Positions 32,405-55,329 of a DNA stretch of 55,329 nucleotides are shown here, piece by piece (within the stretch, counting starts at the first letter, position 1; the number at the start of each line of letters is the position of its first letter). Both the position numbers and the translations under genes were made by a program. The notes beneath the pieces were generated by a model, which was not told the DNA's origin, searched no databases, and worked only from the letters and a program-made list of their open reading frames with translations. The stretch comes from a virus: IMG/VR virus record IMGVR_UViG_3300029199_000006, positions 1-55,329 of that record. One strand, 5' to 3'.

Positions 32405-35400
32405 TCACAGCTTGATCCTTTCATATGCAAACTTGTAAATCTCTTTGCGCTGTAAACTCAACTGGTCCAGCCTCCGCCGCTTCTCTTCGGCACTCATGCG
32501 GGCGTCCATGTAGATCAACCGTTCTTGTTTGCGCAACAACGAAAGCCTGCTGTTTACCATATCGATGAATCGACGATAGCGCATCGGCGGGCTCATGGCC
32601 AATTTTCTGGCCTGCTGGTAATCCCCGAGCTGCTTATAATGGCTGATCGTCGCCGCCAACTCGTTCACTTCGCTGGCAAATTCATAATACCGGGTCGCGT
32701 ATTTGGTCCGGCCTATCTCACTCCGGACAAAGCGCCCCAGGCCGGGCAGGTCGTTAATGGTTTTGGCCGGGCGGGAAGGCGATTCGTTGCCCCACCGGTA
32801 AGCGGCATCGGCAACCCCCAAAAGGGTGGAGCCCAAAACCGCGAAGTGCCCCTGCACCATGTGCTCCATCTTGATGGGCGAAACGCCCAAAGTCCGGCCC
32901 ATGTCTTTTAAGATTTCCGGGGTCCACGGGTTTGCCCGTTCACCTGCAGGCAGCCGCTGCAATGACATGCCTTCCAAGGGCCTGCCGGTAAACGCACTCT
33001 TGTTGGCGTAGACCTCCAGAGACGGAGCGACGGCAGCCGGGGCGCCCACTGAAAACGTCTCAGTCAGGGTGTGGCGCAAGAACCGCAAGAAGAAATCATA
33101 TTCTTCATCCCCGGTCAATACTGCTGCGGCACTTTCGGCCAGGGTCGAAAACAGCGCCCCGACCTCAAAGGCTTTCGGGATGCGGAAATGTTGGTCCCCG
33201 ATCCAGAAATGATGGTACTGCCACTTCTCCCAATCTTCAAGGTCTTTATACCGATCATCGTCATGGTACAGGCTCCACAGCAGCAGAGAGGCCGCCGACA
33301 CCAGAGCCCCTTTAGCGAGAAACGCTTTCGGGTCGGCCTTAGCCCCACGGTACATCCGGTCCATGCCCTGAATACGAGCGTTCAAGAACGGTGTCACCAT
33401 CGACAACACCCGCACCGCATTGCTGGCGCCGGTACGGTAGAAGTCCAGCAGGTCCCGCGCTTCATAGGCCGCCTTGAGATTGCTTTCCCCCTTAACCTTG
33501 AGGTTGGTATAGAGTTGAACGCGGGCCGCCATTTCCGACGCATGGCCGGTGCGCTCCCAAAACTCCAGCATTTTGCGCGGGGTGTCCAACAGGGTGCCCT
33601 TGCTGCCCTTGCCTTCGCGCTTAACGATCTTGTTGATATGCCGGGCCATAGCTCGGGGGTCGCCAGAATCCACCCACCCTTGCCCAAACCCGCCACCGGA
33701 CGCCATCAGGGCGATATAGTCCGGAGACTCTTTCCAGACCTGAACCAAGCCCCTGCCGGTATCCACAAACGGTGCAAAGGACTTGGAAACAACCGCCGTG
33801 TGCAGGGTGTCGCGAAGCATGTTGGCGATTCGGAACGAGGGCGAAATGGTGGCCCCCACAGTCAGCCATCGTTTCGGCGCCCCGAGCATCTTCAGGACCA
33901 GCGAATTGAAAGACTTCGCGTTGGTTTCGGCCAGGGCCTCGAATAAAAGCTCGTCGCTTACCTTTAAGAATACCGCTTTGCCGTCCTCTTGAAAGCTGAT
34001 AACCGAGTTTTCTTTTCGTGCGCCGGGCGACTTAAAGAGTTCGTTGCCAGCCACCCTTTCAGCCAGCCCCATGTCAACCGCCACTTCGGCAGCCGTAGCG
34101 CGGGCCACGTTGCGCTGGCTCTCCTGGATCAGGTGCGACCAGTTGCGTAAAATGTTTTCAATCGGATCGCCGATCTTTTCCGTGCCGCCCTCAAGCCGTT
34201 TGATCTGCGCCGAAATGTGCTTTTTGCTTTTCTGTGGAGAACTGATAAATTCGTCCTGGCTCAGCGGGTCTTCCATGATGCGGTAGAAGGGCAGATAAAA
34301 ATCCCGCATCCAGGCGTCTACCTGTTGCTGAGAAACAAGCCCGGCCTCCATGGAAATGTCGATGATGTTTTGGTTGTAGGCCTGAAACTCCTTATTCAAC
34401 TGCTCAAAGGATTTCTCTTTTGCGGCCCTCTGCTCAGCGGTCAGCCCGGCAAACACAGAATCAAGGACCCCTTGCCGCTTCTCTGGAGTCAGCCAGTTCT
34501 CCCGGCCCTCTGCTTCCAGTTTCTCCGCTCGTTTAACAGCGATCCAGTAAAACAGGTTGCGCCCGTCAGCCCCGATCTTGTGCAGCCATGGAAGGAACCC
34601 TTGCCCCTTCTCTTTGACGGAAAGAACCCCTTGGTCCCATGACAGCCGCCCGTGCTGCAGAAACGTGGAAATCGTTGCATGGGCGTTTCCGAGCAAGCGG
34701 TGTTGCATGTAGGCGTCCTGCCCCAACTGCTCGATGGGGTGCATCCGGTCCACCAGTTTGGTCCGTGCCGCGCTGATCGACTCTTTGCGGTCAACCTCTT
34801 TGGCCTTCCGGAACACCCCTTTAAGGGCGCTGAGATAGGTGTGCTGCTCGGGTACGTCGAACACGTCCGAGATAGCCATGGCCACGGGTCTTGCTGGCGG
34901 TGCAACCTTCGGTGCTTGTGGTTTGGCTGCCGGTTTGGCTGCCGCTGGCTTTACTGCTGCCCTCGGCGCTTCTGCAGGACTTGCCGCAGGCTGCGGAGGT
35001 GGCTCCACGTCCACCTCACTTCTCAACTCCTGCACCTTGGCCAGCAGGGCGGTCTTTTCGGCGCTGTTTGGCATGGCGTCGGCCTTGGCTTGCAAGGCGG
35101 CGATTCGGGCCGGGGTGGTTTTGCGGGCGTAGGATGTAGGCTCATAGACTCCGGACCTGTCGAATGTTGCAAGATTGAGCGACTTAACGGCCTCTTTGCT
35201 TAGCCCAAGAGACTCCCGCTTCTCATAAGCAAGTGCGTCAAATTCTTCTCTCAGATCTTCAAAAGAGCGCAGTTTGCCTACCGGCCTAGCCGTTCCTACG
35301 TCAATGATTGGCTCGCCGTCAGTGCCATCAGCTATTTTCTCGCCAGTCACGAAATAGGCGTACTTCGCCGGGTACTCAGGCTTGTCAGCTACCGAAAGAC

Positions 35401-38400
35401 CGTATTCAGTCTCGCCGTTGGCGTGATTCATGGACCCGCGATGGGTGCCGTTTTTTAAATGGTTAAAATCCTCCTTCTGGTTGGTGGTGCGGACATAAAC
35501 ATTTTCATCCAGCGGCGACAAAAACCTCTGTACTGCGCGGGGCAGAATCCGGCTGTTCACCAAATCCGGGTCCTTGAGAAACACTTTGTCGGCGAACAAA
35601 ACCGCTTCCCCGTCGATGATCTGGATGTTGGCCGGGCCGTCATGTGGGGCAATTTTGACCGCTGCGCCGCCGAAGGAACCGCGCTTATTCTTTAATTCAT
35701 CCTTCCGCTGAAACGCCATCGCCTCGCCTCCGTGAACAAAGGTAACTTCTTCACCAGAAGTTATATACTTGTCCACGTTCGCAATCAAGTTCCGCAACTC
35801 GGCTTTCGACAATTCGAGATTCGAGAATACCGAACGCACCCACTCCCGCACCTTGGCGATTACGCTGTCGATAAACTTGTGCGCCTTGTTCTGCCGCACC
35901 ATATCGACCAGCACTTCCTCTGCGGCCATCAGGCGGCTTGCGTGGGTGTTCTCGATCTTGTGGGCCTTGAGATAGTCGGCCACGTCCTTATTGAACAGCA
36001 TGGCCGCCTGCGCCAGTACCGGCTTCTTGTTGCCGCCCAGGACGTGTTCTAAGCCAAGGTGCCGGGTTTCGTGGATCAGCGCCCGTTGTGCGTCTTCCAT
36101 GCTGGTCAGGTTATCCGCGACCAGATGGACGTTGCCCTTCCAGTATACCCCGTCAAAGGCTCCGTTCATCTGCTCGCGCTCGATGGCGGCTTGCAGGTCC
36201 TGGGGTAGTTGCGTTTCCGACTGGACCAGATTGACCTTGCCGAGTGCGCCGGGGAGTTTGGTCAGGCTGTCTTTCAGACCGGCAGAGAGGTCGGCAAGGG
36301 GAAGACCGGTGCCGGTGTTGCGGGAGAATCTGGTGTTTTTCCCGCCCTTGGCATACTCCGTCAAAACCTCGGCGGCCACAGATTCGGCCTTATTCGCGTT
36401 CTTGAAGAAAATATCCAGATTGTAATCGGCGCCCTGGATCTTTTGCACAATGCGCTTCACCGCATCGAAAGCGGCCCTAAATAACTCCGGGCTTTTCGCG
36501 TAGAGTTTCTGCCAAAAACTCTTGTCAGTGAGCTTGCCGCCGATAAACTCCGCTGCGTATTCCTCCATCAGTTCAGCGTCTGTTATCTCCACGCCATAAC
36601 TATCTTCGACAGCTTGCCGCATTGACTGGAAGTGCGGCTCGTTCACCGCCACGGCTTCAAGGAACTGCTCGTACAGGTCGGGGCGGTCCTCCTTTATGGC
36701 GTGAGTCAGTTCATGCCCGAACAGGGTCAGGTGCGGGACCGGCGTCGAGACGTTGACGAAAATTGTGCCGGGAAGTTTCGGGTCAAAAAAGCCCGGCAGG
36801 CCCGATAAATCTTCTCTCGTCGTCTGAAACACCACGATCTTTTTCTGAAAAACTCCCGCCAGTTTTCCAAGGTCGTCCAGGTCAGTTCGTTCCCATAGAT
36901 CGACACTTGCGGGTTCAACTTCTCTACCAGCCGCACGAGAAAGGGAGGCCGTGAGCTCTTCCACTCTTTTTTGGTCTGTAACAGGTGCAGATGTCTTGTC
37001 ATCGGCCATTCCTTTGCCTTCGGGGGAGAGATAGCCTGCCCCGCGATGCGGGAACAGGGCGGGCTTGCGGGAGAAGGCCGGAGCGTCTTTGTTGATAACA
37101 ACCAAACTTGTCGCCACCCCGGTCGGACGCTCGGCGCTCTTGAAAGATCCGTCAGGCAGTTCCTGCACCTCCCCACCAACGTCTTCAATCCACTGGCGGA
37201 ACTCTGTAGATTGCCGGTCGTTACGGAAGAACGGACCCCGGCTCATAATGGCGACCACTTTCCCGTCCTGTTTCAACAGATCGTAAGCATGGCGCACATG
37301 GGCCATATCCTGCCCGTTCTCAAAGGGCGGGTTCATCAAGATGCGGTCGTATTCCCCGGACTGCTCCAAGAAGTCCTGCCCCACAACGTCATAACCTTTT
37401 TGCTGCAACAGATCGGCCAAAGTGCTGTTGTATTCCACCACTTCCGGGGTGAAGCCTGCTTCGCGGATAGCGTCAGCAATATTCCCTTTGCCTGCGGACG
37501 GTTCCAACACCTTCAGGCCTTCTTGAAGGTCGGCCAACTCGATCATATCCTGCACGATATTCTTCGGTGTCGGGAAGAACCCCGGAATGGGTTTTAACGA
37601 AACTTCCCGCTCCAACTGCTTAATTCGGTCTGCTGCTGGCTTCTTGCCTCGATAGTTCAAGTATTCCCGCAGGGCCGCCCGCAAGGAGGGCAGATCAGTA
37701 ATGCCCATTTTCTGCCAGCGACCATAGGCTTGCAGTTGCTCTTTGATATTTTGAGCCGCGTAGGCGTCCAGCCCATTCGCCACCGCCTTGGATAAGGCGC
37801 GTTCTAACAAGGTAATATTCTCTGCCGTGGCAAAGGACACCACCGAGGTTCTTTCCTTATCGGTAGCCTGCCACAGTTTCCGCAATCTGGCGGCGTCCTG
37901 TTTACCCCCGGATTTCCGCTCCAAGAAGGTGAACAACTCCCGGACGTGGGACTCGTGAACGGAGGGATAAGGATATTTGGCGTTCTGGATATCTTCTAAG
38001 GAAACTTCCCGCTCTTGCGATTGGGCATAAGAGATATTATTGGCCCGCTCGTATTCCCGCTTGGCGGCTCGCAGTGCTTGGTCAAGGGCTTCAATGTGCG
38101 TCTTAGCCCGCACCCCGTCAAGGTGGGTGGCTTCTCCGCTTTCGATGGCCGCCGAAAGGTTCCTCATGGTCTGCGCCATCGCTACATCAGCGCGGGCTGC
38201 GGCTTCGGCAGAACCGGCCATTCGGGCCATGCGGTGCGTGTGGGTCTTGCGGTCCTGATTCAGTGAGGCGTTGGCTTTTTCTTCCAGCGCGGCGGCCATC
38301 TCAGCGAGGTTGGCAGCGGCGTTCTGTTTGACCGACTCCTGCCGGTCCTGTACCCTGTCGGCCTTTGAAACATCACCCTCTTTGAGAGCCATAAAACTTT

Positions 38401-41400
38401 CGGCAGAGGACTGTTCTTTGAATTGGAATCCGGGAACAGCTCCATTGGCGCGATACGAGGAATACCAGCCGCCTAACTGTTTGGCTTTTTGCAGCAGGTC
38501 TTTGTAAACGTCTTTATCCACCTTGTCGGTCAGTTTTACCACCCACAGCGGATAGCCGTTCTTGGTGTGAGTGGTTTCCACCATCTCCATGCCGGTGTCG
38601 CCCAACTCTACACCACGAACAACGGCCTTGGCTTCCTGCTCGGCCTGCCGCTGTTCCTTGTTGGCGAGGGCGCGGAGTTCGTCATAACGGGCTTGCTGCT
38701 CGGCGGTCAGACTTTTAGCCCCACGGACCTGAACGAGTCGTTTGAAATCGTCCAGCGTTTCCGGGTTCTCAAGCGACTTTTTCCAGAGATCGACCTTCTC
38801 TTTATTTTTGGCTCTCGCCTCTTTGACTCGCTCGGCGAAGGCTTGCAGGAGTTCTTCGGTCATCCCGTCAACCTTGGCGCGGATGGCCGCTTCCGGGCCG
38901 TCCATGCCATAGGAATAGCTTTGCCCGGCCACAAAGTCGCTGGTCATTTCGCCCAAAACCATCTTAACGATGGCCGCCTTGCGCTCCCCTCTGGCCCTAT
39001 CTTTGCCGAGAGAGCCCAGCATCTTGGTCAATTCCTTGACCGTCTTTTCTCCCAGTTCCTTGGAGAGAGCTTCACGGCTGTCCATGAATTGCGCGAAGGC
39101 GGATTGCAGGTCGGCCACGGAGAGTTCCCCGTCGTACATGCGGGACATTATGGCCTTGTGGTTATCGACGGTGTAGCCGGAGGATTCGGCGGACGGGGCC
39201 GGAACGGTTTTGCTGTCAGTCAAGTAGACCGGCGCCAAACCGCCGTTGACGATCATCGACCGATAGCGATAGGTGCCATCCTGAGAGACAAGGATGCTCT
39301 TGTAATCGTTGGGTGCCTTCGCCCACTTCTCTTTTGTGACAGCGACAAAATCAAGGCCTGGATCGTTGACGATGGGGAGTTTATTCTGCTGCTGTTTAGC
39401 GGATTTTTCGCGGCGGTCGGCTTCTTCGCGGGCCTTCTGCTTGTTTTCGTCGCTCGCCTGCTTGCGCTGTTCGCGCACTTCGGCCACGCCGGTCTTTGCA
39501 GCGGCTTCCGCTTCGGCCTGTTTCGTCCATTGGGCGAAAGCCTCTTCCGCCCGATCCAGGGCGCTGTTTCTCTGCCCCGCCTGTTTAGCGTTAAAGTTGC
39601 TTTTCCCGGCGACATGGGCCGATACGGTGTTTTTCCGCACGTCAAGGACGCGATAGCGGCGGTCAACGTATTCTGCCCTTACCCGCTCCAGTTCGTCGGC
39701 CAAACTTTGTTCGTTGCCTTCTGGAAGGTCTTTGCGCAGATCGGCTTCCAATTCCTGCATAAAGCTATCGAACTGCGACAGTTCCACGTCTGCGGCCCGC
39801 ATCGGGCTATTGCTGGTCCCAGAGTAAGCGGCGGCCACACGTTTTCGGTCCAAACCGTCTGCAGGCCCTCCCTCAAACATCCCCGTCTGTTTGGCGTCAT
39901 CAGCCGCCACGGCCATTTCGGTTTCCATGGCAAGTTCGGTGACGTTGGCCCCTTCCGGTTTTGGTTTCTTGCCAAAGGTCGGGGGAGTGGCAAAGAGTTT
40001 GCCGTCCTCCCCTACTTTTTGGCCGGGGCGGGTTGTTCCTTCTTCTTCGGGACGAACCCGGTTTCCTTGTCCTTCAGTTTGCGTGTCAGCACTTTCTGTG
40101 CGGCTTTGCCCATCGGTTTCCCTTTCCGAAAGTTCGATCAGGCGGCGCAAGATTTCTGCGTCGGTTCCTTCTTTCTCCATGATAGCGAATGCGGCATCTT
40201 CGTCAACCTGTTTTGCGGCTTCAAACGCATCGCTCAACTTCCGTTCCATCACGCCCCAATCGGGGTCATAGGTGGATTCCTCAAAGGCGTTCCCGGTCAC
40301 GGCGTTCTCGATCCTGCGGTTGTTCTCCTGCCACGCCTCGACGATCCCCTGCTGTTTCTCGGTCAACGCCTTCCCTTGCGCGTGTTTCCGCAGGGCGGCT
40401 GTGGTTTCTTTGGCCGAATAGCCGCCGTCGATATACCAGCGGTGCGCCAGGCTGTTGGCGCTGACCGTGGCGTTCTTTTTGAATCCGTCCGCCACCAGGG
40501 TTTCCGAGTTCTTGGCATTGCGCTCAATATCCGTTGCGTCGGCTTCGGCGGCGGTGCGCTCGATCTCTTCGGCGGTTGGCTCTGCGAAGGGGTCAAAATC
40601 TTCGGCAAGGGCCGCTTCCTGCTCCCCAAACACCTGCTGCGCGTATTCGCGGGCGTAGTTGTCCACCTGAGCGTCGGCAGCATATTGGGCCTGTACGGCT
40701 TCGAGGCTGCCAAGCTCCTGCACCTTGCTCTCGATGAAGGCGCGGCGGTTGGGGTCAAGCTCCACCCTTTCCATGGCGTCACCAGCGGGGGCCTGCTCAA
40801 CTTGCTCTACCGGCGCTTCCAGCAAGTCCTGCAACGCCTCGCGCACCTGGGTCTCGCGCTTCTTCGGGAACATCCAGCCGCCGTGCTTTGCGTTCCATGA
40901 TCCCTTGAGGGCCTTGATCCGGTCCTTATGGGCCTTGGTGTCGCCCTTGACCAGAATGGCCTTCTCCGACAGCGGGGCGATCTGGAGCGGGGCTTGAGGT
41001 GTAAAGGATTCCTTTACAACTTCGCCTTGATTCTCAGAGTTTATGTCGTAAGCTGTTGATTCTGCAATGGTTTCTTGGTTGACGGGTAATTGATTGACTG
41101 GCTCAATCTGGCCCTCCTGCACCGCCTCTGACATCACCGGGGCGGTAATGTTCGGAGCTTCCACCGGAATGTTCACAGCTTCCGGCGTAATGCTCGGAGC
41201 TTGCAAGTCTTCCCGGCTGCCTTTCGGATCGTAAGCGTTCGGGCCGCGCATGGGGAAAGCCCCCGGCATCTGCATGGATTCCGGGGCAGACAGCGCCAGG
41301 CGCGACGGTGCGGGAAGAGCCCGAAGGCCCTGCTTGGCAGCGATCACCCCCAGGTTGGACACCCGGTTCGGGTCCGCCTGCGGTATCGGGGGTTCGTTGA

Positions 41401-42469
41401 TGTTCTGCTGCGAGGCCGCTACCTGCTCGTCCGTCATCCCGGTATTGAGCCCACGGTTGATGATGGTGTTCTTTTGCTCGGGAGTAACAGCGGCCCCTTC
41501 CGGAGAAACTTCCACGGCAGGAGAAGGCAGCAGGCGTGATTCGTCGGTAATAGGCCCTTGCTCTGCGGCGGGCTCTACCGGGGCTTGGACTGCTTGTTCT
41601 TGGGTGGCAACCGTGGGGTTCCCGGACAGGACGGCAGCGGGGCCGCCGACCAGACCGCCGATAACCGATTCAATGATGTTGTCGAAATAGCCCGCGGCCT
41701 CGTCGTAGCCGTGCTTGGCAATAGCGTTCTGCGCAATGGTCTGCGTCGCTTCCGTGCCGGATTCGCCGATAGCGCCCACGATAAAGCGCCTTGCCGCAGG
41801 ACCCGTGGTTTTCAAGATAGAGTCCAAGCCGAATTTTTCCAGCATGAACGTCACGGTTCCGGCCTTCATGGCGAAGTCCAGCGCCTCCTTTGGCGTTTTC
41901 CCTTTGGCCTTTGCGTCCTCGTAAATCCCGCCCGCTTCGGCCCCGGACAGAATGGCAGCGCCACCACTTGGCCCGGCAATGATTGAGACAGGGACAGCCA
42001 CCCCAAGCGAGACACCCCCTTGAACCAGAGCCGACACGCCCCGTTTGACGCTCGGGTTTTCCAGAAAGGTGCCGCTGTATTTAGGGGCATACTCCTGGGC
42101 AACGCCCCCCCAATAGTCGGCGGTTTCTTCTAAAACCTGCTCCGTCCCTTGGTTGGCTGCATCAAAGCCCCGGTCAATCTTGCCCAATAACCCGCTTCGA
42201 GGGCCGGACGGCGTAATCCCTTGGCGTTCGTTCCGTTCTTCAATGCCTTGCTTGTAGGCTTCACGGGAAGCCTTGGCGAGGCCAAAGATCCCGCTGACAA
42301 TTCCGGTCCCTGCCGACACTGCCGCCTCTCCCGTCGCTTCCCACCAGGAAGGATCTTGCGGCGGCTGGTCTGCGGCCACCATGTCAAAAATATCCCCGGC
42401 CGCCTCTTCCCCTTGCGGTTTGGCGCTGGTGGTTTCTTCCATGTCGATCAGGTCAAAAATGTCAGGCAT
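32405..42469 (-). CDS. Giant polyvalent ejection protein, 3,354 aa
   Basis: One of the longest phage proteins seen in such genomes. Near residues 500-560 is a small KGDTKAHKDRIKALKGSWN domain found in large polyvalent proteins. An N6-adenine methyltransferase-like domain (EPSAGKGNIA then MNPPF) lies near residues 1640-1760. Two zincin motifs follow, HELTH near 1918 and HETRHLGLEH near 2136. The C-terminal 800 residues resemble LPD38-type regions. It is probably injected with the DNA to protect or cleave host targets (DarB-like logic). It is the largest gene by far, flanked by other internal-virion genes. Confidence 0.85.
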   Translation of the reverse strand: MPDIFDLIDMEETTSAKPQGEEAAGDIFDMVAADQPPQDPSWWEATGEAAVSAGTGIVSGIFGLAKASREAYKQGIEERNERQGITPSGPRSGLLGKIDRGFDAANQGTEQVLEETADYWGGVAQEYAPKYSGTFLENPSVKRGVSALVQGGVSLGVAVPVSIIAGPSGGAAILSGAEAGGIYEDAKAKGKTPKEALDFAMKAGTVTFMLEKFGLDSILKTTGPAARRFIVGAIGESGTEATQTIAQNAIAKHGYDEAAGYFDNIIESVIGGLVGGPAAVLSGNPTVATQEQAVQAPVEPAAEQGPITDESRLLPSPAVEVSPEGAAVTPEQKNTIINRGLNTGMTDEQVAASQQNINEPPIPQADPNRVSNLGVIAAKQGLRALPAPSRLALSAPESMQMPGAFPMRGPNAYDPKGSREDLQAPSITPEAVNIPVEAPNITAPVMSEAVQEGQIEPVNQLPVNQETIAESTAYDINSENQGEVVKESFTPQAPLQIAPLSEKAILVKGDTKAHKDRIKALKGSWNAKHGGWMFPKKRETQVREALQDLLEAPVEQVEQAPAGDAMERVELDPNRRAFIESKVQELGSLEAVQAQYAADAQVDNYAREYAQQVFGEQEAALAEDFDPFAEPTAEEIERTAAEADATDIERNAKNSETLVADGFKKNATVSANSLAHRWYIDGGYSAKETTAALRKHAQGKALTEKQQGIVEAWQENNRRIENAVTGNAFEESTYDPDWGVMERKLSDAFEAAKQVDEDAAFAIMEKEGTDAEILRRLIELSERETDGQSRTESADTQTEGQGNRVRPEEEGTTRPGQKVGEDGKLFATPPTFGKKPKPEGANVTELAMETEMAVAADDAKQTGMFEGGPADGLDRKRVAAAYSGTSNSPMRAADVELSQFDSFMQELEADLRKDLPEGNEQSLADELERVRAEYVDRRYRVLDVRKNTVSAHVAGKSNFNAKQAGQRNSALDRAEEAFAQWTKQAEAEAAAKTGVAEVREQRKQASDENKQKAREEADRREKSAKQQQNKLPIVNDPGLDFVAVTKEKWAKAPNDYKSILVSQDGTYRYRSMIVNGGLAPVYLTDSKTVPAPSAESSGYTVDNHKAIMSRMYDGELSVADLQSAFAQFMDSREALSKELGEKTVKELTKMLGSLGKDRARGERKAAIVKMVLGEMTSDFVAGQSYSYGMDGPEAAIRAKVDGMTEELLQAFAERVKEARAKNKEKVDLWKKSLENPETLDDFKRLVQVRGAKSLTAEQQARYDELRALANKEQRQAEQEAKAVVRGVELGDTGMEMVETTHTKNGYPLWVVKLTDKVDKDVYKDLLQKAKQLGGWYSSYRANGAVPGFQFKEQSSAESFMALKEGDVSKADRVQDRQESVKQNAAANLAEMAAALEEKANASLNQDRKTHTHRMARMAGSAEAAARADVAMAQTMRNLSAAIESGEATHLDGVRAKTHIEALDQALRAAKREYERANNISYAQSQEREVSLEDIQNAKYPYPSVHESHVRELFTFLERKSGGKQDAARLRKLWQATDKERTSVVSFATAENITLLERALSKAVANGLDAYAAQNIKEQLQAYGRWQKMGITDLPSLRAALREYLNYRGKKPAADRIKQLEREVSLKPIPGFFPTPKNIVQDMIELADLQEGLKVLEPSAGKGNIADAIREAGFTPEVVEYNSTLADLLQQKGYDVVGQDFLEQSGEYDRILMNPPFENGQDMAHVRHAYDLLKQDGKVVAIMSRGPFFRNDRQSTEFRQWIEDVGGEVQELPDGSFKSAERPTGVATSLVVINKDAPAFSRKPALFPHRGAGYLSPEGKGMADDKTSAPVTDQKRVEELTASLSRAAGREVEPASVDLWERTDLDDLGKLAGVFQKKIVVFQTTREDLSGLPGFFDPKLPGTIFVNVSTPVPHLTLFGHELTHAIKEDRPDLYEQFLEAVAVNEPHFQSMRQAVEDSYGVEITDAELMEEYAAEFIGGKLTDKSFWQKLYAKSPELFRAAFDAVKRIVQKIQGADYNLDIFFKNANKAESVAAEVLTEYAKGGKNTRFSRNTGTGLPLADLSAGLKDSLTKLPGALGKVNLVQSETQLPQDLQAAIEREQMNGAFDGVYWKGNVHLVADNLTSMEDAQRALIHETRHLGLEHVLGGNKKPVLAQAAMLFNKDVADYLKAHKIENTHASRLMAAEEVLVDMVRQNKAHKFIDSVIAKVREWVRSVFSNLELSKAELRNLIANVDKYITSGEEVTFVHGGEAMAFQRKDELKNKRGSFGGAAVKIAPHDGPANIQIIDGEAVLFADKVFLKDPDLVNSRILPRAVQRFLSPLDENVYVRTTNQKEDFNHLKNGTHRGSMNHANGETEYGLSVADKPEYPAKYAYFVTGEKIADGTDGEPIIDVGTARPVGKLRSFEDLREEFDALAYEKRESLGLSKEAVKSLNLATFDRSGVYEPTSYARKTTPARIAALQAKADAMPNSAEKTALLAKVQELRSEVDVEPPPQPAASPAEAPRAAVKPAAAKPAAKPQAPKVAPPARPVAMAISDVFDVPEQHTYLSALKGVFRKAKEVDRKESISAARTKLVDRMHPIEQLGQDAYMQHRLLGNAHATISTFLQHGRLSWDQGVLSVKEKGQGFLPWLHKIGADGRNLFYWIAVKRAEKLEAEGRENWLTPEKRQGVLDSVFAGLTAEQRAAKEKSFEQLNKEFQAYNQNIIDISMEAGLVSQQQVDAWMRDFYLPFYRIMEDPLSQDEFISSPQKSKKHISAQIKRLEGGTEKIGDPIENILRNWSHLIQESQRNVARATAAEVAVDMGLAERVAGNELFKSPGARKENSVISFQEDGKAVFLKVSDELLFEALAETNAKSFNSLVLKMLGAPKRWLTVGATISPSFRIANMLRDTLHTAVVSKSFAPFVDTGRGLVQVWKESPDYIALMASGGGFGQGWVDSGDPRAMARHINKIVKREGKGSKGTLLDTPRKMLEFWERTGHASEMAARVQLYTNLKVKGESNLKAAYEARDLLDFYRTGASNAVRVLSMVTPFLNARIQGMDRMYRGAKADPKAFLAKGALVSAASLLLWSLYHDDDRYKDLEDWEKWQYHHFWIGDQHFRIPKAFEVGALFSTLAESAAAVLTGDEEYDFFLRFLRHTLTETFSVGAPAAVAPSLEVYANKSAFTGRPLEGMSLQRLPAGERANPWTPEILKDMGRTLGVSPIKMEHMVQGHFAVLGSTLLGVADAAYRWGNESPSRPAKTINDLPGLGRFVRSEIGRTKYATRYYEFASEVNELAATISHYKQLGDYQQARKLAMSPPMRYRRFIDMVNSRLSLLRKQERLIYMDARMSAEEKRRRLDQLSLQRKEIYKFAYERIKL

Positions 42470-45919: not shown

Positions 45920-47192
45920 CTCCCCACGGATGAATCCGGGGGATTCCTAATTCGCAGAATCTAGCCCGACTGTGTTTAGACACAGACAGGACTTACGGAC
46001 TCTCCAAAGGCTGACACCGCCCGCCCGGCGGCCAAGATGTTAATTGCTGCGTTGACGTCCCGATCGTGTTCTGCCTTGCAGTCGGGACACGACCAGCTTC
46101 GGACAGAAAGAGGCAGCTTGTCCATGACAAAGCCACACGCCGAGCATCGCTTGCTCGACGGGTACCACTTGTCGATACCGACAAGTTCTCTGCCGTACCA
46201 GCGTGCCTTGTATTCCAGCTGCCGGACGAACTCCGACCAGCTGGCGTCGGCGATGGATTTGGACAGACAGCCGTTGCGCAGCATGTTCTTGATTGAGAGT
46301 GTTTCGAGAACGATCGTTTGGTTCTCACGGATCGTCCGGGTCGAGAGTTTATGGAGGAAGTCACGCCGGGTGTCGGCGATTTTCGCATGAAGCCGGGCGA
46401 CCTTGACCCTGGCCTTAGTGCGGTTGCGTGAACCCTTTTTCTTCTTCGCCAGCCGCCTCTGGAGCTTCGCAAGCTTTTTCTCGTTGCGGCGAAAAACGTT
46501 CGGAGCAGCCACCTTCTCGCCCGTGGAGAAAACGGCAAAGTGTGACAGCCCCAGATCGACGCCGACTGCGGCCTCAACTTTTGGAAGAACTGCCACCGCA
46601 TCGTCGCACAGCATAGAGACGAAGTATCTGCCCGCTGCATCCTTGGAGACGGTCACGGTTGTGACCTTGGCCGCCTTGGGGAGAGTGCGGGAGAAGCGAA
46701 TCTTGAGCGGCTGCTTCATCTTCGCCAGGGTCAACACCCTGCCATCCCACTTAAAGGCGGAGGACGCATAGGTGGCCGCCTGACGATCATGCTTTGAGCG
46801 AAAGGATGGATAGCGTGTCCGGCCTGCGAAGAAGTTGCTGAATGCCTGTTGCAGGTGACGAAGGGCTTGCTGGATGGGGACACTTGAGACGTCGTTGAGC
46901 CAGGCGTACTCGGGGTTTTTCTTGAGCTGTGTCAGTGCCGCAGACGTCTCGTTGTAATCGAGGCGCTCACCCTTCTCAAACCAGGCATCGGTGCGTAGGC
47001 GCAGCATGTGGTTGTAAACGAAACGAGCGCAGCCGAACGTCCGGGACAGGACATCTTCCTGCTCGGGTGTTGGGTAGAAGCGAAATTTGTACGCTCGTTT
47101 TATATCCATAGCTTACAGTGTACCGCACTTTCGTGTAAAAACCAAGCCAAAACCTGCGCCTTATATCCCCATAGATGAATCTAGGGGTTTTA
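45917..47192 (-). mobile_element. TnpB-only IS200/IS605-type element, second type
   Basis: Flanking hairpins CCCC-ACGGATGAATCCGG (about 45922-45941) and CCCC-ATAGATGAATCTAG (about 47167-47187) are similar to those of the 28-kb element but the tnpB is different. There is no tnpA. Ends are approximate. Confidence 0.8.
45976..47109 (-). CDS. tnpB: TnpB RNA-guided nuclease-like protein, 377 aa
   Basis: RuvC-I Asp in AVGVDLGLSHFAVF, RuvC-II Glu in TIVLETLSIKNM, a zinc finger CSACGF...CPDCKAE, and RuvC-III Asp in HDRDVNAAINILAAG. All catalytic residues present, so it may be active. It separates the ejection operon from the tail genes. Confidence 0.92.
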   Translation of the reverse strand: MDIKRAYKFRFYPTPEQEDVLSRTFGCARFVYNHMLRLRTDAWFEKGERLDYNETSAALTQLKKNPEYAWLNDVSSVPIQQALRHLQQAFSNFFAGRTRYPSFRSKHDRQAATYASSAFKWDGRVLTLAKMKQPLKIRFSRTLPKAAKVTTVTVSKDAAGRYFVSMLCDDAVAVLPKVEAAVGVDLGLSHFAVFSTGEKVAAPNVFRRNEKKLAKLQRRLAKKKKGSRNRTKARVKVARLHAKIADTRRDFLHKLSTRTIRENQTIVLETLSIKNMLRNGCLSKSIADASWSEFVRQLEYKARWYGRELVGIDKWYPSSKRCSACGFVMDKLPLSVRSWSCPDCKAEHDRDVNAAINILAAGRAVSAFGESVSPVCV

Positions 47193-47882: not shown

Positions 47883-50176
47883 CGTTTCATTCCTATAAGG
47901 CCTAAGTATCTATAAAAAGCATTCTTATTTGCAGTTAAATAAGACGTTGTGTTGAGCCTAAGCTGCAAATACACGGTTACTGATCCTGCCGGAAAAATCA
48001 TGGTGCTAAAGGAAACTGCCCCCCTTAGTGTTGCAGTTGAAGACCCGAATTGTCTCTCTACCATATACTCTGGAATGATTTCGGTTCCTGTGCTGTAAAC
48101 CAAACGGCAGTACAGTTCTCCGGTGACATACCCAGTCGAAGACCATGAAATATAGTAAGCAGACGCATAGTCAATGCTGACAGGCTGGCCGAGAGCATTA
48201 ATGGTGGCTTGTTGTATAGTAACCCAAGATGTTCCTAATGCTATATTGCCGGCTGTATATGCGCCAACCGGCACCGTGACCGCGTTCGGACCAATCTTCA
48301 GCGTCGTTACCGCTGCATTCCCCAACAACGCTTCACCAATGGCCGCATTCTCAAAATAACTGCTGATGTTGGCAACGGTAAATCCATTAAGGGTTGACAG
48401 AGAACCGAGCCCGGTAACCGCCGTTGAGGGAACGCCTCCACCGGCACTGACAATGGTATTCCCCGCTGCATCAAAGATTTCAATAGCCCAGTCAGTGCCG
48501 ATTTTCCCGAGCCGCACCCGCACCCGATTCCCGTCACTGACAGTAATCTGCTCATTGGTCCCGTCGATATGGATCCGGCTGGAAGCACCCACAAAAACAT
48601 TGGACACGGAGATAACCCCGGCCAGTATCTTCGACGCCGACAGTTGAAACGCTACCGACGCTTCATCGGCGACAATCTTCTGCCCGACGAAGTTGGTCGC
48701 GGTCAGGTTCTTTACCAAGGCGGTATCCATGTATACCGAGCCATCCTGCACCACAAACGGGATCATCGCCTTGGCACAGCGCAAACCGGGAAAGCCTTCC
48801 GCTACCGTTGCTGGTGTTACCGGAGTGCCCGTGATGGTGTAGGTAAACTGCGTGGTACTGAGCACCGTTGCTACCTGATGCCCGCCGTTATATTCCCGCT
48901 GATCCGCCCCGGTCATCACAACCCGGTCCGATACCGCCAATCCGTGTGCGGTACTGGTGGTTACGGTAACTGTCGAACCGGAGCGGGTAATCGAACTGAC
49001 AGTCCGCACGTCCGCTGCCGGATTGATAATGGCAAACCGATCGACTAAAGCTAGGAACTCGCTGAACGGTACTCCGTTGATCGGCTCAGAGGCCAGTCCA
49101 TAGCCCGAGGGAAAGCCGTTGTTATCGATCTTGGTCGTAATCTGCGCTTCCAGCCCGTCCACACTGGTCTGTTGGGTTTGAATGCTGGTGGTGTTATCCC
49201 CCACGGTGGTCTGCAAAGTCGAGACGTTTTGTGCGATGGTGCTGTCTGCGTCAGCTCTTGCCGTGGCTTCGTTCTGTACCGCACTATGGGCTGCTGACAG
49301 GCCCGTGGCGGGGTCGTTAATCGTTGACGTAACCGTGGTGATGTCCTGCGCCAGTGCGCTATCCGCATTGGTTCTGGCCTGCGATTCCGACACCACCGCT
49401 GAATGTGCGGCAGCCAAACCAGTAACGGGGTCAGCTACTTCGGCCTGCACCAAATCCAGGCTTTCCGCCAGCGCCCCGTCTGCGGTTTGCCGCGCCTGGG
49501 CTTCCGACGCCACCGCCGTGCCTCGATCTAGTATCTCCTGCGCCAGACCATCAACCAGCCCGGTTCCCGGAGTATCAATCAAATCAATCCGGTCGTTCAA
49601 AACGCTATACAACTGGCTTTCAGTAATCTGCTCCTGTAGCAAGCTCAGCACATAGCCGGGGTCGGTCGCCGTGGAGCCCGGTGTGCCTTCCACGGCGTTG
49701 AAGGCCCCGACGTCCCCGTTCTTGTTGACGTGACGGCCCCAATAATAATAGGTTTCCGACGCCAGACTGGAAGGCAGGGTATCGTCGGTCCAGAGATAAA
49801 AGGCTTCGCGGCCCACCTCCACCGCCTGCCCCAAGTCGTTGACCTGCGCCCGCCAGATTTCCGTATAAGCATGGCCCAGATAACTCGGCGGCAGCCACTT
49901 GGCCATGATCGCCGAAAAAGCCCCGATAATCTCCAATCCCTGCAAGGTTTCCGGCGCCTCGATCACTTCCGTGGTGCCGTCCCCGGTGCTGCCGCTCGGG
50001 CTTTGCGAGATGCTATCCACCACGCTGGACACCTGTTTCGAGATTTCCACCACCTGCGCCTGCACAGCGGTCAGACCGGTTACAGCCGCCCGCACCGCCA
50101 GGGAGAACTCGCGCAACTCTGCCGGGGTCGGCTTGGCGGATAAAGGTTTGATCTGCGGAAACAATGCCTGGGTCAT
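47879..50176 (-). CDS. Tail fibre/tip protein with coiled coil, 765 aa
   Basis: The N-terminal 180 residues may attach to the tail. Residues about 200-360 are heptad repeats (SEAQARQTADGALAESLD type). A DUF1983-like, C-terminal-J-type region (SASKILAGVISVSNVFVG then GKIGTDWAIEIFDAAGN) follows, then a jelly-roll-like end. An FCCH-like module (TAHGLAVSDRVVMTG...YNGGHQVA) lies near residue 410. It is likely a trimeric central fibre. Confidence 0.75.
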   Translation of the reverse strand: MTQALFPQIKPLSAKPTPAELREFSLAVRAAVTGLTAVQAQVVEISKQVSSVVDSISQSPSGSTGDGTTEVIEAPETLQGLEIIGAFSAIMAKWLPPSYLGHAYTEIWRAQVNDLGQAVEVGREAFYLWTDDTLPSSLASETYYYWGRHVNKNGDVGAFNAVEGTPGSTATDPGYVLSLLQEQITESQLYSVLNDRIDLIDTPGTGLVDGLAQEILDRGTAVASEAQARQTADGALAESLDLVQAEVADPVTGLAAAHSAVVSESQARTNADSALAQDITTVTSTINDPATGLSAAHSAVQNEATARADADSTIAQNVSTLQTTVGDNTTSIQTQQTSVDGLEAQITTKIDNNGFPSGYGLASEPINGVPFSEFLALVDRFAIINPAADVRTVSSITRSGSTVTVTTSTAHGLAVSDRVVMTGADQREYNGGHQVATVLSTTQFTYTITGTPVTPATVAEGFPGLRCAKAMIPFVVQDGSVYMDTALVKNLTATNFVGQKIVADEASVAFQLSASKILAGVISVSNVFVGASSRIHIDGTNEQITVSDGNRVRVRLGKIGTDWAIEIFDAAGNTIVSAGGGVPSTAVTGLGSLSTLNGFTVANISSYFENAAIGEALLGNAAVTTLKIGPNAVTVPVGAYTAGNIALGTSWVTIQQATINALGQPVSIDYASAYYISWSSTGYVTGELYCRLVYSTGTEIIPEYMVERQFGSSTATLRGAVSFSTMIFPAGSVTVYLQLRLNTTSYLTANKNAFYRYLGLIGMKR

Positions 50177-52581
50177 ACGTTCCTCAACTCGGCCATGGTT
50201 TCGGCCAGCACAAGGGTTTCAATCTCGCCTGCGGCGCTTCCGGCCACTTCAATCTCTATCGTTTCGGTCACATACCCGCCCGGCAAGCGGAAGGGTTTGG
50301 CGTTGGCCACCGTCACGGTACGGCTTACCGTCTTGCCGCTGGCCACCAGCCGTCCACCAGAGGCCGCAGCAATGGCGGTCGCCGTGGCGTCACTGCCAAA
50401 GGTTGCAACCATCTTGAAAGTGAAGGGGTAGGCGGTCGCCTTGAGCTGTCCCACGCCAAAGCAAACCGGGTACGGCAGATCGTGGCGCTTGCCCTTGCGG
50501 GTCAAGGATAGATTCGCCCCACCTTCCCACTGCACAATGTCATCACCTCGTTGCAGGTAGAGGATGTCGGTCAACAGATCCACATGCACCGCCGTGGCAT
50601 AAATATCGGCAAAGTCCACCGAACCGTCCGTCAGGTTCAGGATCAAACAGCCCTGAGCCGCGCCGTTGTCGTAGAAGGCATAATATTTGCCATCATGGGC
50701 AGCCGAAATGAAGGATGAGGGGTTCAGCGCCTGCCAGTCCTGCCGCCTGAATAGCTGCTGCGTGGCATTCTCGGCCACGCCACTGCCGATAATCATCAGC
50801 CCGTCCGGAGAAGGATAGGCCACCGCGCTGCCCAAGTCCGCCATGCCGCGCCGTGATACACAGGCCTGGTTTATTTCGGTACGGTCCATGGTCATGTAAC
50901 CTGGAATCGCCCCGGTCGCCACATAGGGAACGCCCTTGGTCGTGACCAGCACCGACGAGCCGAACACCTCCAGCCCGACAATTTCAAAATCCGTCGGCAG
51001 CCGGTAGCGGGTCGGCCAGGCATGGCACTGAAACGGTTCGCTAAAACAAACGTTCTTGCCGGAGAAGCCCACCAATACCCCGTTGGGCATGGCCCGGACC
51101 CCCTTTAAATCGTCGGGCGGAGCGGTATAGTCTTCGGTCTTCAACAGTTCGTTGGAGCCCACCACCGAGGGCAGGGCATTGTCCGTGTAACTGGAGGCCG
51201 CCACCGCCACCTCAGCGACGAAATGAAAGGCGCTGTCGCCCGCCGTGTTTAATCGGTAAATCCGCCGATGGGTAATGTTGTAGGCCCCGGCAGGAATGGA
51301 GCTGAGCTGAGACACCAGAACCCCTTGGCCGTTGGAGAAATCCACATCCACCAAAGCAGAGGCAGAGGATGGCGGACCTTCTTCGTCGATCCCCGACCAG
51401 CGCCGGACAAAGGTTTCCACATAGGCGGTTGTGGTCAGGCCGTCACCATCTTTGGGGTCGGCCCCCGGTTCCCATCGGGTCAGTCGGGTATAGGTTCCGG
51501 ACGTGAACGCCCCGTAAAGCGTCGAATCCACATCCACGCCGTCCAGGCTTTGCAGGGTGAAGTTGTTGGCGTCCACTTTCACGATCTGGCCAATCCAACT
51601 GTCCAGCTCCGTCATTCCCGTCGGCATGGCCAGCGATACCCGCTCGCCTGTCAACAGACCATGGGCCGTGCGGGTAATCTTTGCCGGGTTGGCGTTGGTT
51701 AGGCTGGTAATGGCGACCGGGCTGTAGGCAATAGAGCGCTGCAGCAGTTCAAAGTTGCCCGAGGTGAACGTAGCGTAGCCGGTGCTATCTACCCCGTTGA
51801 GGGTGAAGCGGTTGGCATCTACACGGGTAATGGTCGCCTGAGTGTTGTGCAACTGCGTCATGCCGTTAATCGACAGGTGAACTGTATCGCCGGTTTGCAG
51901 CCCGTGACCGGCTGAATAAGCACTGGCCGGGTTGGCCTTGCTGATACCGGTAATCGCGGCCATGCGCAGTGAGGCCAGCCCTGAGACAAACAGGCTGTCG
52001 GCATCCCGCACCGTCAGGCAAAACCTCTGCCCGTCCAGCGCCGTTACGCCTGTGCCGTAGATTCCGCCGTAATATGTCAGGTTCGAGGCCAGACCATGCC
52101 CGGCCAGGGTAATCCAGACGGTTCTGTCCGTTGACCAGTTCACCGCTGTGATTGGTTTCGGCAGCACCCCGGCCACACTCACCACGGTAACGGTCGGCTC
52201 ACTGACTGGCGCCGGCAACCCGAGCAGATAACTGTTGTTCGGGTACAGCACTCCGCCGCCCGCCGTGGCAATCGAGGCGTCCGTCACCTTCGGCACCCCG
52301 TCGCCGGTAAACACCGTGCGTTCCTGGGTATCGTTGGGAATCGGCGCCCGCACCACATCCACCTCATCCAGCCAGTGAAACCAGAAGGTTTTGGCGAACA
52401 GGTGAATACTTTTCTTGGTCCCGACCTTGGCGGGGGTTGCCACTACCGCCGTGTCTTTCAGCGGACGCAGATTGCCGTTGTCATGCACGGCGTTGTGCGA
52501 TACCTGAGCCGCGCCTTCGGGCAGGTATTGCGGAGCTATGGCCGGGATCTGGCCCCGGAAGGCGTTTTCTCGTATCAGCAT
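50173..52581 (-). CDS. Tail protein with FCCH-like repeats, 802 aa
   Basis: Residues about 200-340 contain two clear FCCH-like modules (GMTQLHNTQATITRVDANRF, with GVDSTGYATFTSG; and GMTELDSWIGQIVKVDANNF) and a third degenerate one. The same module is found within the DGR target. The N-terminus (MLIRENAFRGQIPAIAPQYL) is typical of phage tail hub or nozzle proteins. The ATG at 52581 is preceded by AAGG. Confidence 0.75.
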   Translation of the reverse strand: MLIRENAFRGQIPAIAPQYLPEGAAQVSHNAVHDNGNLRPLKDTAVVATPAKVGTKKSIHLFAKTFWFHWLDEVDVVRAPIPNDTQERTVFTGDGVPKVTDASIATAGGGVLYPNNSYLLGLPAPVSEPTVTVVSVAGVLPKPITAVNWSTDRTVWITLAGHGLASNLTYYGGIYGTGVTALDGQRFCLTVRDADSLFVSGLASLRMAAITGISKANPASAYSAGHGLQTGDTVHLSINGMTQLHNTQATITRVDANRFTLNGVDSTGYATFTSGNFELLQRSIAYSPVAITSLTNANPAKITRTAHGLLTGERVSLAMPTGMTELDSWIGQIVKVDANNFTLQSLDGVDVDSTLYGAFTSGTYTRLTRWEPGADPKDGDGLTTTAYVETFVRRWSGIDEEGPPSSASALVDVDFSNGQGVLVSQLSSIPAGAYNITHRRIYRLNTAGDSAFHFVAEVAVAASSYTDNALPSVVGSNELLKTEDYTAPPDDLKGVRAMPNGVLVGFSGKNVCFSEPFQCHAWPTRYRLPTDFEIVGLEVFGSSVLVTTKGVPYVATGAIPGYMTMDRTEINQACVSRRGMADLGSAVAYPSPDGLMIIGSGVAENATQQLFRRQDWQALNPSSFISAAHDGKYYAFYDNGAAQGCLILNLTDGSVDFADIYATAVHVDLLTDILYLQRGDDIVQWEGGANLSLTRKGKRHDLPYPVCFGVGQLKATAYPFTFKMVATFGSDATATAIAAASGGRLVASGKTVSRTVTVANAKPFRLPGGYVTETIEIEVAGSAAGEIETLVLAETMAELRNV

Positions 52582-52591
52582 GGTGCCATCC

Positions 52592-52924
52592 TTACATGCC
52601 CTGCACAGAGGCCGTAGCGGTGCCGAGTACAAGTGTCACAGACTCGCCAACGCCAAGCTGGCCGACGATGATGAGGTTGTCTGATTCAGCCCGAAGGGGA
52701 TAGGTTTTCGTCGTGTCGCCGTTAAAGTAATAGTATCCGTCTACGGTAGGGTCGATACGCAGAATCATTCTCCCCATAATATCCACATCACCGCCCTCCC
52801 CTTTTTTAAAAACGACTGTGCCGGTCATGGCAGTGTTGACCTGGCTAAATCTCGGATCAGGAACGAATGCCGGCACAGGGGTCCCGATGTAATCACGGAG
52901 CAGTTTTGCGTTCGTTGCGTCCAT
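52592..52924 (-). CDS. Tail-region protein, 110 aa
   Basis: Beta-rich; starts MDATNAKLLRDYIGTPVPAF and contains VDGYYYFNGDTTKTYPL. Upstream 132 bp (52925-53056) is non-coding. It probably binds tail or nozzle proteins. No family recognised. Confidence 0.55.
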   Translation of the reverse strand: MDATNAKLLRDYIGTPVPAFVPDPRFSQVNTAMTGTVVFKKGEGGDVDIMGRMILRIDPTVDGYYYFNGDTTKTYPLRAESDNLIIVGQLGVGESVTLVLGTATASVQGM

Positions 52925-53056: not shown

Positions 53057-53485
53057 TCACAACCCCAACATCGTTCTCTGCCCTCTGCCCCAGGCCCTTA
53101 CTTCCTCGATAAACGCCTGATACTCTGCGATCAGGGCCGGTTCGTGCGGTTCCATCGCATATGCGCCGGACAGAGCGCCGACGGCAATGCGCGTCAGATA
53201 CATCTCATCCTCGCTGCAATACTTTTCGCGGATTTTGTCCTGCATCCGTTGATAGATTAGTCTGCACTGTGGGCTTGCGGTTTTAATCTGCTCTCGCAGT
53301 TCGGGGGTCAGGTCTGCCGGCTCCACGGTGATTTGTGGCGGCTGAGGCGGTAGTTCTTCGGGACCGCAAAAATAGACGTAACCGTCCTCAAGTGTGCAGA
53401 GCTCCTGCACCGGTGCTTCTTCGCTTCCCTGGGCGCGGTAAATCGTGTAGGCGTCGGATACGGGCTGGTAGCGGTAGATTGTCAT
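53057..53485 (-). CDS. Tail-associated hypothetical protein, 142 aa
   Basis: N-terminal beta-rich part (MTIYRYQPVSDAYTIYRAQG), middle Pro-rich linker and C-terminal helical part with a KIREKYCSEDEMYLTRIAVG segment. Its 5' 98 nt overlap the reverse-transcriptase C-terminus in another frame. A role as fibre-assembly partner is possible. Confidence 0.6.
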   Translation of the reverse strand: MTIYRYQPVSDAYTIYRAQGSEEAPVQELCTLEDGYVYFCGPEELPPQPPQITVEPADLTPELREQIKTASPQCRLIYQRMQDKIREKYCSEDEMYLTRIAVGALSGAYAMEPHEPALIAEYQAFIEEVRAWGRGQRTMLGL

Positions 53486-54437
53486 GGGGGATCTCCTTTA
53501 GGTGATCGATCAAGTGCGGCAGGCTGGCGGTGTCCTTGGCGTGGCCGAGCAGGGACGCCACGGCGCGGGCGTTGCCCCGCTTGGCCCTTCGGCGGAACTT
53601 GTAGAGGCTATGCTTGCGGATCAGGCGGTGGCTGCGCCAGGTACGGTAGCCAACAAAATTGACACCATGTTTAACCTTTTGGATGGTCGACTTGGAAAGC
53701 CCCAGCCGGAGATTGTCGGCCAGAAACTCCACTAATCGTTGGCGTAAATCTAGGCACTGCTTACGGGTCAAGCCGAAGAGGATAAAATCATCCACATAGC
53801 GGACATAATATTGGGCCTTGAGCGAGCGCTTAACGTATTGATCCAGGGGGTTAAGATAGACTAGCGCATAGAGCTGGCTGAGTAAATTTCCGATCGGGAT
53901 GCCCACCGGGCCGTCTGCATCGGCAAAACGCATCATGATGTCTGTAAGTTTCCAGTCCTTTATTTTAGACTCGACCAGCAGCCGCAGAATGTTGCGATCG
54001 ATGGAGTAGAAAAACTTGCGGATATCAAGCTTTAGGGTGTAGCTATCCGGGTCGCAGTCTCTTAACGCCTGCTGTGTGTAGGTGCTGGCTTTGTGAGTTC
54101 CGTAACCGATCCGACAGGCGAATGACGTGCTGATGAAGGTTCGGTCGAAGATCGGATAGACTGTGCGATAGATGGCATGCTGCACAACGCGATCGCGAAA
54201 ATGCGGTGCGTGGATCAATCGTGGTTTTGGTTCGCTGACCCAAAAGGTGCGGTAGGGCCTCGGGCGATAAAACCCGCTGTGGATCTCCCAGAAAAGTGCG
54301 TCCAACTCGCCGCCGAGATTGGTTTCGAAATTGAAGCAGGCCCTTTTTTTTCGCTTACCGCTTCGGGCATCGAGATAGGCTTGATACAAATTATCGCGAG
54401 TAAATGTTTTGGCAAATAAGTTGCCGTGGCGTTTCAT
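53388..54437 (-). CDS. DGR reverse transcriptase, 349 aa
   Basis: Key motifs are present: LKLDIRKFFYSID (motif 3, about residue 135), GIPIGNLLSQLYALVYLNPLD (DGR-type I/LGxxxSQ, about residue 183) and YVRYVDDF with the catalytic DD near residue 212. The IGNxxSQ form separates DGR RTs from group II and retron RTs. ATG at 54437 has a GGAGG site 5 nt upstream; an ATG at 54536 is less suitable. It copies TR RNA with adenine infidelity. Confidence 0.95.
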   Translation of the reverse strand: MKRHGNLFAKTFTRDNLYQAYLDARSGKRKKRACFNFETNLGGELDALFWEIHSGFYRPRPYRTFWVSEPKPRLIHAPHFRDRVVQHAIYRTVYPIFDRTFISTSFACRIGYGTHKASTYTQQALRDCDPDSYTLKLDIRKFFYSIDRNILRLLVESKIKDWKLTDIMMRFADADGPVGIPIGNLLSQLYALVYLNPLDQYVKRSLKAQYYVRYVDDFILFGLTRKQCLDLRQRLVEFLADNLRLGLSKSTIQKVKHGVNFVGYRTWRSHRLIRKHSLYKFRRRAKRGNARAVASLLGHAKDTASLPHLIDHLKEIPHDNLPLPARIRRLHDLPRPGKRRSTGAGALHT

Positions 54438-54559
54438 TTGGCCTCCGGTCTTCGGCTTAAGCCTACCAAAAGGAGGCTGATATTCGATTTCGCGTAACGC
54501 GGGACAGCGCATCCCTGAGACTTCCACTGCACGCATCTAGCGTCTTGAGGATGAAAGTG

Positions 54560-54675
54560 TCAGTCCGCCCGGAACCCGACATTGTTGTTCGAGTTCGTCC
54601 GGTTGTTGTTCCAATTGACCGCCGACACGCCCGCGTTGGAACTAGTGCTCCAACCCGCGCACGAGAGCAGGCACA
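54560..54675 (-). repeat. DGR template repeat (TR)
   Basis: 116-bp sequence between avd and RT. Read on the minus strand it encodes CAGWSTSSNAGVSAVNWNNN then RTNSNNNVGFRAD and TGA, full of AAC/AAT codons as usual in a TR. It matches VR (55134-55249) except at T positions of the plus strand. No ribosome site is present, so it is non-coding template. Confidence 0.95.
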
Positions 54676-54697
54676 CGCTGAGGCACTGCCCCTTTGG

Positions 54698-55096
54698 TTA
54701 CCACCTATTTTCTTCTTTGATTTTGCGGATCCAGGCACCAATCATCCGCCCCAGTTCGTCAACCAGGTTGCCCAGAGTGGCGAAACGGCGGGCCTCTAAC
54801 TGTTGCGGTGTCTTATTTAAGACGCGGCCGTCCTTGAATCGGAAATATCCCAATTCGTAGGCCAGATAGAGCTGCATCCGCAGCCTTTGATGGGCAATGT
54901 CCAGATTGGTCAGGGTGGTCTTCTTGTGGTAGCGTTTTTCCGCCTCGGTAATATAGTCATACACCTCATAGGCACAATTCCTGATACGGTTGACCAGAGC
55001 GAATTTCTCTGCCCTGGGAAAATGGTTGAGATAGATATTGAGCAGTTTGGCAAACTCAATAAATTTTCGATTCAATTCAACTTCGCCGTCTTTCAT
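54698..55096 (-). CDS. avd: Accessory variability determinant (Avd), 132 aa
   Basis: Basic helical protein (MKDGEVELNRKFIEFAKLLN ... EKRYHKKTTLTNLDIAHQRL). Length and four-helix pattern match Avd, which forms a pentamer and binds RT and TR RNA for mutagenic homing. A GAGG site lies upstream of its ATG. It sits between VR and TR in the usual DGR order. Confidence 0.9.
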   Translation of the reverse strand: MKDGEVELNRKFIEFAKLLNIYLNHFPRAEKFALVNRIRNCAYEVYDYITEAEKRYHKKTTLTNLDIAHQRLRMQLYLAYELGYFRFKDGRVLNKTPQQLEARRFATLGNLVDELGRMIGAWIRKIKEENRW

Positions 55097-55118
55097 TTTG
55101 TTAGGTCCTCGCTATCGC

Positions 55119-55329
55119 TCAGTTCGCAGGGTAACAGGCCGCCCGGAACCCGACAGAGAAGCCCGAGGACGCCCGGCTGTGGAGCCAATAGACCGCCGAC
55201 ACGCCCGCGTAGGAACTAGTGCTCCAACCCGCGCACGAGAGCAGGCACAACTCGTTTCGGACGTACTGATAAAAATAGTCGGCACCGAAAAGGTTGGTGC
55301 CACTGGTTGAGGCCCCGTTGGTGTCCTTC
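55119..55329 (-). CDS. DGR target: 3' part of the receptor-binding protein
   Basis: This is the end of the gene that begins at 1503; bases 55221-55329 repeat 1-109. It holds the VR, encoding CAGWSTSSYAGVSAVYWLHS then RASSGFSVGFRAACYPAN and TGA. The stop codon is 22 nt before the avd start. Confidence 0.93.
   Translation of the reverse strand, partial: KDTNGASTSGTNLFGADYFYQYVRNELCLLSCAGWSTSSYAGVSAVYWLHSRASSGFSVGFRAACYPAN
55134..55249 (-). repeat. DGR variable repeat (VR)
   Basis: Aligned to TR, there are 17 differences, all at template adenines (minus strand); the other 92 positions and 7 adenines are identical. Variant residues cluster at Y, L, H, S, A, S, G and F positions of the lectin fold. 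GC-rich GTCGGGTTCCGGGCG near the 3' end resembles the initiation-of-homing region. The last 29 bp also appear at window 1-29. Confidence 0.95.
55221..55329. repeat. Terminal direct repeat, right copy (circular assembly overlap)
   Basis: Identical to bases 1-109. It begins about 10 bp beyond the last variable VR position. Confidence 0.95.

Follow-up and report, generated by a model that had tools for sequence, protein, structure and literature searches.

The window analysed here (the whole 55,329-nt stretch, positions 1–55,329 of the IMG/VR record IMGVR_UViG_3300029199_000006) almost certainly carries a canonical phage diversity-generating retroelement (DGR) on its minus strand, and the fuller reading of this element, in which the 5′ part of its template repeat (TR) has been overwritten by its own variable repeat (VR) through gene conversion, is probable. 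Such a VR-to-TR event would be unusual, since information is accepted to pass only from TR to VR, whereas the DGR itself is ordinary—a retroelement that is one among tens of thousands known.

On the coding strand, the DGR runs from the target gene with its terminal VR through a hairpin, avd, TR and a 122-nt spacer to the reverse transcriptase (RT) gene. A preliminary description had proposed a complete element at 53388–55329 with VR, avd, TR and RT in canonical order; all parts of a DGR were tested and found, and the proposal stands except for its extent, as the target gene is not ended by the contig but wraps around its ends. The RT (349 amino acids; 53388–54437 (−); PF00078; phrog_1423, 4e-103) starts at the ATG at 54437 and not at position 54536 of the longer open reading frame. 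Its best match among PDB structures was the 8ub7 series, annotated as ‘Reverse transcriptase’ (6e-55), which we take to be the BPP-1 bRT–Avd–RNA complex. The motifs IGNLLSQ (motif 4, at 182) and YVDD (motif 5, at 214) place the enzyme in the DGR clade, whose RTs have the signature (I/V/L)GxxxSQ plus YxDD (PMC3521204). The avd gene (accessory variability determinant, 132 amino acids; 54698–55096 (−)) matched PF22296 (bAvd; 7e-17), exceeding the Pfam cut-off, and phrog_3206 (Avd; 2e-23), and gave 4e-20 with NF033474 (DivGenRetAVD), where its 72 bits lie slightly below the cut-off of 80. The spacer between TR and the RT start (54438–54559 (−)) occupies, by its coordinates only, the position of the BPP-1 ‘Sp’ element.

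Just 3′ of VR, the hairpin CTGAGC-GATA-GCGAGG (55107–55122 (−)) has a GRNA loop and overlaps the stop codon of the target gene. Phage DGRs have GC-rich stems of 7–10 bp with GRNA loops (PMC3240598), and we took a GC-rich stem of 7–10 bp with a GRNA loop at 4–34 bp after VR as the criterion; the window hairpin agrees with it in loop and in position, lying 17 bases 3′ of where the GCC mark described below starts. Its stem consists of C-G, T·G, tandem G·A/A·G, G-C and C-G, not of 7–10 Watson–Crick pairs. A GRNA-loop hairpin with at least 2 flanking Watson–Crick pairs was present at 70 of 70 loci, with the tandem G·A stem form (core GAGC-GRNA-GCGA) at 32 of them and fully Watson–Crick forms at other loci; the tandem G·A hairpin looks like a variant of the phage-DGR GRNA-loop element. 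Gene order and adenine bias were alike at about 80 related loci.

The two repeats lie 574 bases apart on the minus strand (TR, 54675–54560; VR, 55249–55134), and the pair was confirmed as a repeat over 54561–54675 (TR) and 55135–55249 (VR). TR (54560–54675 (−)) is non-coding, lies between avd and RT and contains 24 adenines (28 in L002, introduced below), and VR (55134–55249 (−)) forms the C-terminal end of the target gene, ending directly ahead of the stop codon. Across the 116 aligned bases, TR and VR differ at 17 positions, all of them among the 24 TR adenines, with 0 differences at the other 92 positions (hypergeometric P = 3.4e-15 for 17/116; 1.6e-14 for a 16/115 repeat). This minus-strand alignment, proposed earlier as a check, confirms the adenine-only pattern and reproduces the count of 17 exactly, but two of the 17 differences are not hypermutation. 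At position 112, VR has GCC where TR has GAC, and since every one of the 69 related VRs that share the landmark also has GCC, the A-to-C change is a fixed IMH/IMH* difference and not a random mutation; at the other TR adenines, the related VRs have A, G, C and T in 871, 535, 315 and 293 cases. Position 116 lies past the point at which VR and TR part, that is, at the end of homology. Fifteen sites within positions 1–111 are left, and these are genuine hypermutation sites. The VR codons are mainly AAC or AAT, with changes at the first two bases. The terminal GAC of TR against GCC of VR is invariant across 69 pairs of this DGR clade and forms a one-base IMH*/IMH mark. No further TR/VR copies or extra VRs were found elsewhere in the phage genome.

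The target gene begins at the left end of the window (1–1503 (−), the N-terminal 501 amino acids) and continues across the contig ends into 55119–55329 (−), which encodes the C-terminal part with the VR half of the lectin domain; joined, it has 535 codons including the stop (534 amino acids). The window has an exact 109-bp terminal repeat (1–109 is identical to 55221–55329), and because of these identical ends and the frame that stays open through the join, the contig is closed and the phage genome is circular, at 55,220 bp. The contig break lies inside VR, adjoining VR position 30, which is a TR adenine; this placement is only suggestive of a branch in the assembly graph caused by a mixture of VR alleles in the sample.

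A profile built from 27 related target proteins matched TaqVP (5vf4) at 7e-5 in two pieces, one of which is the VR half, and this split match to a solved DGR lectin backs the earlier description of the target as lectin-like. The two TaqVP-matched pieces are separated by an insert in the lectin fold, an E1_FCCH-like beta domain at about residues 308–386 (346–582 (−); PF16190, 5e-9), for which Foldseek returned Uba6/Uba1 and the phage T1 tail tube. The top Foldseek matches concerned this insert and not the lectin core, and TaqVP was found weakly. In the AlphaFold model of the target (the L002 protein), mean pLDDT was 61 and the VR region fell below 50, for which reason its VR geometry was set aside. 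An Mtd_N domain (the N-terminal domain of Mtd) occurs in two relatives (L067 and L076). There is good support for the target as a lectin-type tail protein, putatively of C-type lectin (FGE/CLec) fold with VR in its binding face, and by analogy we infer a role in receptor binding. The FCCH-like domain is also present twice in the neighbouring 819-amino-acid virion protein (50173–52632 (−)), at about 46% identity, which may reflect module sharing between tail and virion proteins.

Evidence of activity comes from a second contig, IMGVR_UViG_3300018405_000831 (4,041 bp; L002), which has in common with the window a block of 3,044 bp reaching from within the target gene to within the gene after RT (the larger part at 53187–55220 (−), continuing at window 1–1010). 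Outside the block, nucleotide identity drops to 73% and 78% in the two flanks. Within it the two contigs differ at 24 sites, of which 19 lie in VR (each at a TR adenine), 4 lie in TR and the last falls in the other 2,812 bp (VR versus the rest of the block, Fisher P = 1e-26). The VRs of these related phages thus differ as the preliminary description had predicted, and its reading of mutagenic homing is supported by a divergence confined to TR adenines. Because a near-identical block lies inside diverged flanks, these contigs give strong evidence for a recent exchange of the cassette between phages followed by VR diversification; the divergence between the assembled contigs likewise speaks strongly for DGR activity in nature. 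In four other groups of contigs with identical avd (L007–009, L032–035, L068/070 and L076/077), the VRs again diverge almost exclusively at adenines. Two pattern scans of IMG/VR for further near-identical cassettes yielded only L002 as a match over the TR/VR 5′ half, plus the L067/L115 group. The window and L002 form a rare natural experiment, in which the backbone is almost constant and VR has changed at 19 sites.

The four TR differences lie in a tract at 54645–54665 (−). Positions 11, 21, 22 and 31 of the window TR (54665, 54655, 54654 and 54645) read C, G, G and C, as in the window VR, whereas the L002 TR has A at each. Of 61 other TRs, all have A at positions 22 and 31 and 60 have it at position 21 (the exception being L043), and position 11 is A in the nearest relatives L067, L072 and L115; these outgroup TRs show A to be the ancestral base at all four positions, with the window TR having lost four adenines. 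The changes convert one AAT codon to GGT (Asn to Gly) and another to ACT (Asn to Thr), and a further one is silent; the GGT codon is no longer diversifiable and the ACT codon is only partly so. That TR stays unchanged while VR diversifies is typical of a DGR, though not required, and it holds in the four other identical-avd groups, whose TRs are identical while their VRs differ, but it fails for the window against L002, a change of the template that the preliminary description had no means of seeing. A replacement from another phage’s TR was considered and rejected, as 0 of 61 TRs have C, G, G and C and VR was the sole donor found. A non-exhaustive literature search found no published report of VR-to-TR transfer. 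In a separate locus, L044, TR and VR (5705–5818 and +575) show some non-adenine differences, and at one of these, position 105, the L044 VR equals the TR of the related L048, suggesting that the L044 TR changed after the last homing.

Agreement between TR and VR alone gives no direction, as homing after a TR change would put C, G, G and C into VR. The most likely reading of this one pair of assembled metagenomic contigs is nevertheless that VR rewrote TR. A doubtful alternative, although the strongest of those considered, is self-homing, in which TR itself took up a mutagenized cDNA and then passed its new sequence on to VR in subsequent rounds of homing, which would account for four TR changes that are all at adenines and all agree with VR. 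The changes are however confined to the first seven adenines (4 of 7, against 0 of 21 others; Fisher P = 0.0017): TR 1–38 is identical to VR and the 21 adenines from position 33/39 on are untouched, which at the L002 VR rate (13/28) has a probability of about 2e-6. Homing in BPP-1 moreover begins at the 3′ IMH, with a TR that ‘remains unchanged’ (PMC3240598), and the window TR has the GAC (IMH*) form and not the GCC of VR. Confinement of the changes to a 5′ tract agrees with conversion of TR by VR, and not with a cDNA that is started at the 3′ end and mutated at adenines throughout.

It is improbable that TR changed by ordinary point mutation, with selection perhaps favouring fixed Gly and Thr residues as the better ones. 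Point changes do occur among the TRs of more distant relatives, mostly at non-adenine positions. The window TR has 4 changes in 116 bp against 1 in the 2,812-bp backbone (P = 1e-5); each of the four replaces an adenine (P = 0.003) by the base that VR carries, and one is silent. Equally improbable is an assembly or PCR chimera in which VR sequence was stitched into the TR of the window contig. The two repeats are near-identical and the contig ends within VR, which would favour such an artefact, but an ancestral-type TR, differing from the window VR at positions 11, 21, 22 and 31, has no 21-mer in common with it over bases 1–38, the link from the TR 5′ flank to the C at position 11 would have to be present in real reads for a graph assembler to make it, and the 109-bp terminal overlap suggests that long k-mers were used. 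A non-functional DGR, whether chance repeats or a decayed element, can be dismissed for practical purposes, as the adenine restriction (P = 3e-15) refutes a chance pattern, RT, avd, hairpin and IMH mark are intact, and VR has diverged since the cassette exchange.

In the preferred reading—a working DGR whose template was partly converted by VR—the RT, together with Avd, would copy TR RNA into cDNA with errors at adenines (a route modelled on BPP-1), and this cDNA would replace VR at the C-terminal end of the lectin-fold tail protein, presumably altering phage binding if the receptor role known from BPP-1 applies. In the window lineage, a TR segment that starts no later than position 11 and ends between positions 31 and 39 would then have taken on VR sequence by gene conversion, through ordinary homologous recombination of the two repeats. 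This would have fixed C, G, G and C at four sites that were adenines before, leaving the template with a piece of an earlier VR product. The phage encodes a recombination module, comprising a YqaJ/RecE-like exonuclease (23684–24304 (−)) and the resolvase RusA (20536–21057 (−)), so that an exchange between repeats offset by 574 bp is plausible. Whether DGR information can flow backwards, with a selected VR copied into the template and future diversification narrowed, seems to us evenly balanced. If so, part of a successful binding site would be hard-wired into the template, and a conversion that is real and recurrent would provide a mechanism for DGR template evolution and for locking in tail specificity obtained by random search.

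The genome also encodes three different TnpB proteins (IS200/IS605 OrfB, an RNA-guided nuclease family; 28213–29262, 30554–31774 and 45976–47109 (−)), three distinct genes within a single 55-kb phage genome, and a 3,354-amino-acid polyvalent protein with LPD38 and methyltransferase domains (32405–42469 (−)). The closest cellular RTs, from Geobacter and other proteobacterial genomes, were too weak a basis for naming a host.

The element resembles the DGR of Bordetella phage BPP-1 (mtd-avd-TR-brt) in gene order, bAvd-type Avd and adenine-only mutagenesis, with 38.6% identity between Brt and the window RT; both also have VR at the extreme C terminus and, 3′ of it, the stop codon together with a GRNA-loop hairpin (PMC3240598). 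They differ in the target, which in BPP-1 is the beta-prism/beta-sandwich trimer Mtd and in the window a lectin of about 534 amino acids with an FCCH-like insert, and in the hairpin, with a 7–10 bp GC stem in BPP-1 and tandem G·A mismatches in the window. The rewritten 5′ tract also sets the window TR apart from that of BPP-1, which is said to stay unchanged under unidirectional homing (PMC3240598); hankyphage TRs likewise have no substitutions (PMC6199706). The DGR of Pseudomonas phage Bise and the IMG/VR relatives L002–L064 have the same order and GAC/GCC mark, with RTs 49–100% identical, but their TRs keep the conserved adenines at 21, 22 and 31 (except L043 at 21). TaqVP, the Thermus aquaticus DGR variable protein, matches the target profile in both pieces including the VR half; the window target differs in its long N-terminal tail part and in the FCCH-like domain, which probably lies at TaqVP insert 2. 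Transfer of a core DGR cassette between phages has been described for the kappa-like prophage of V. cholerae HE-09 (PMC3521204), where, as here, a unit of roughly 3 kb (RT, avd/atd, TR, VR and target end) moved by recombination in the target gene; the 3,044-bp block of the window and L002 differs in being still nearly identical, and for this reason the VR change since their exchange can be counted.
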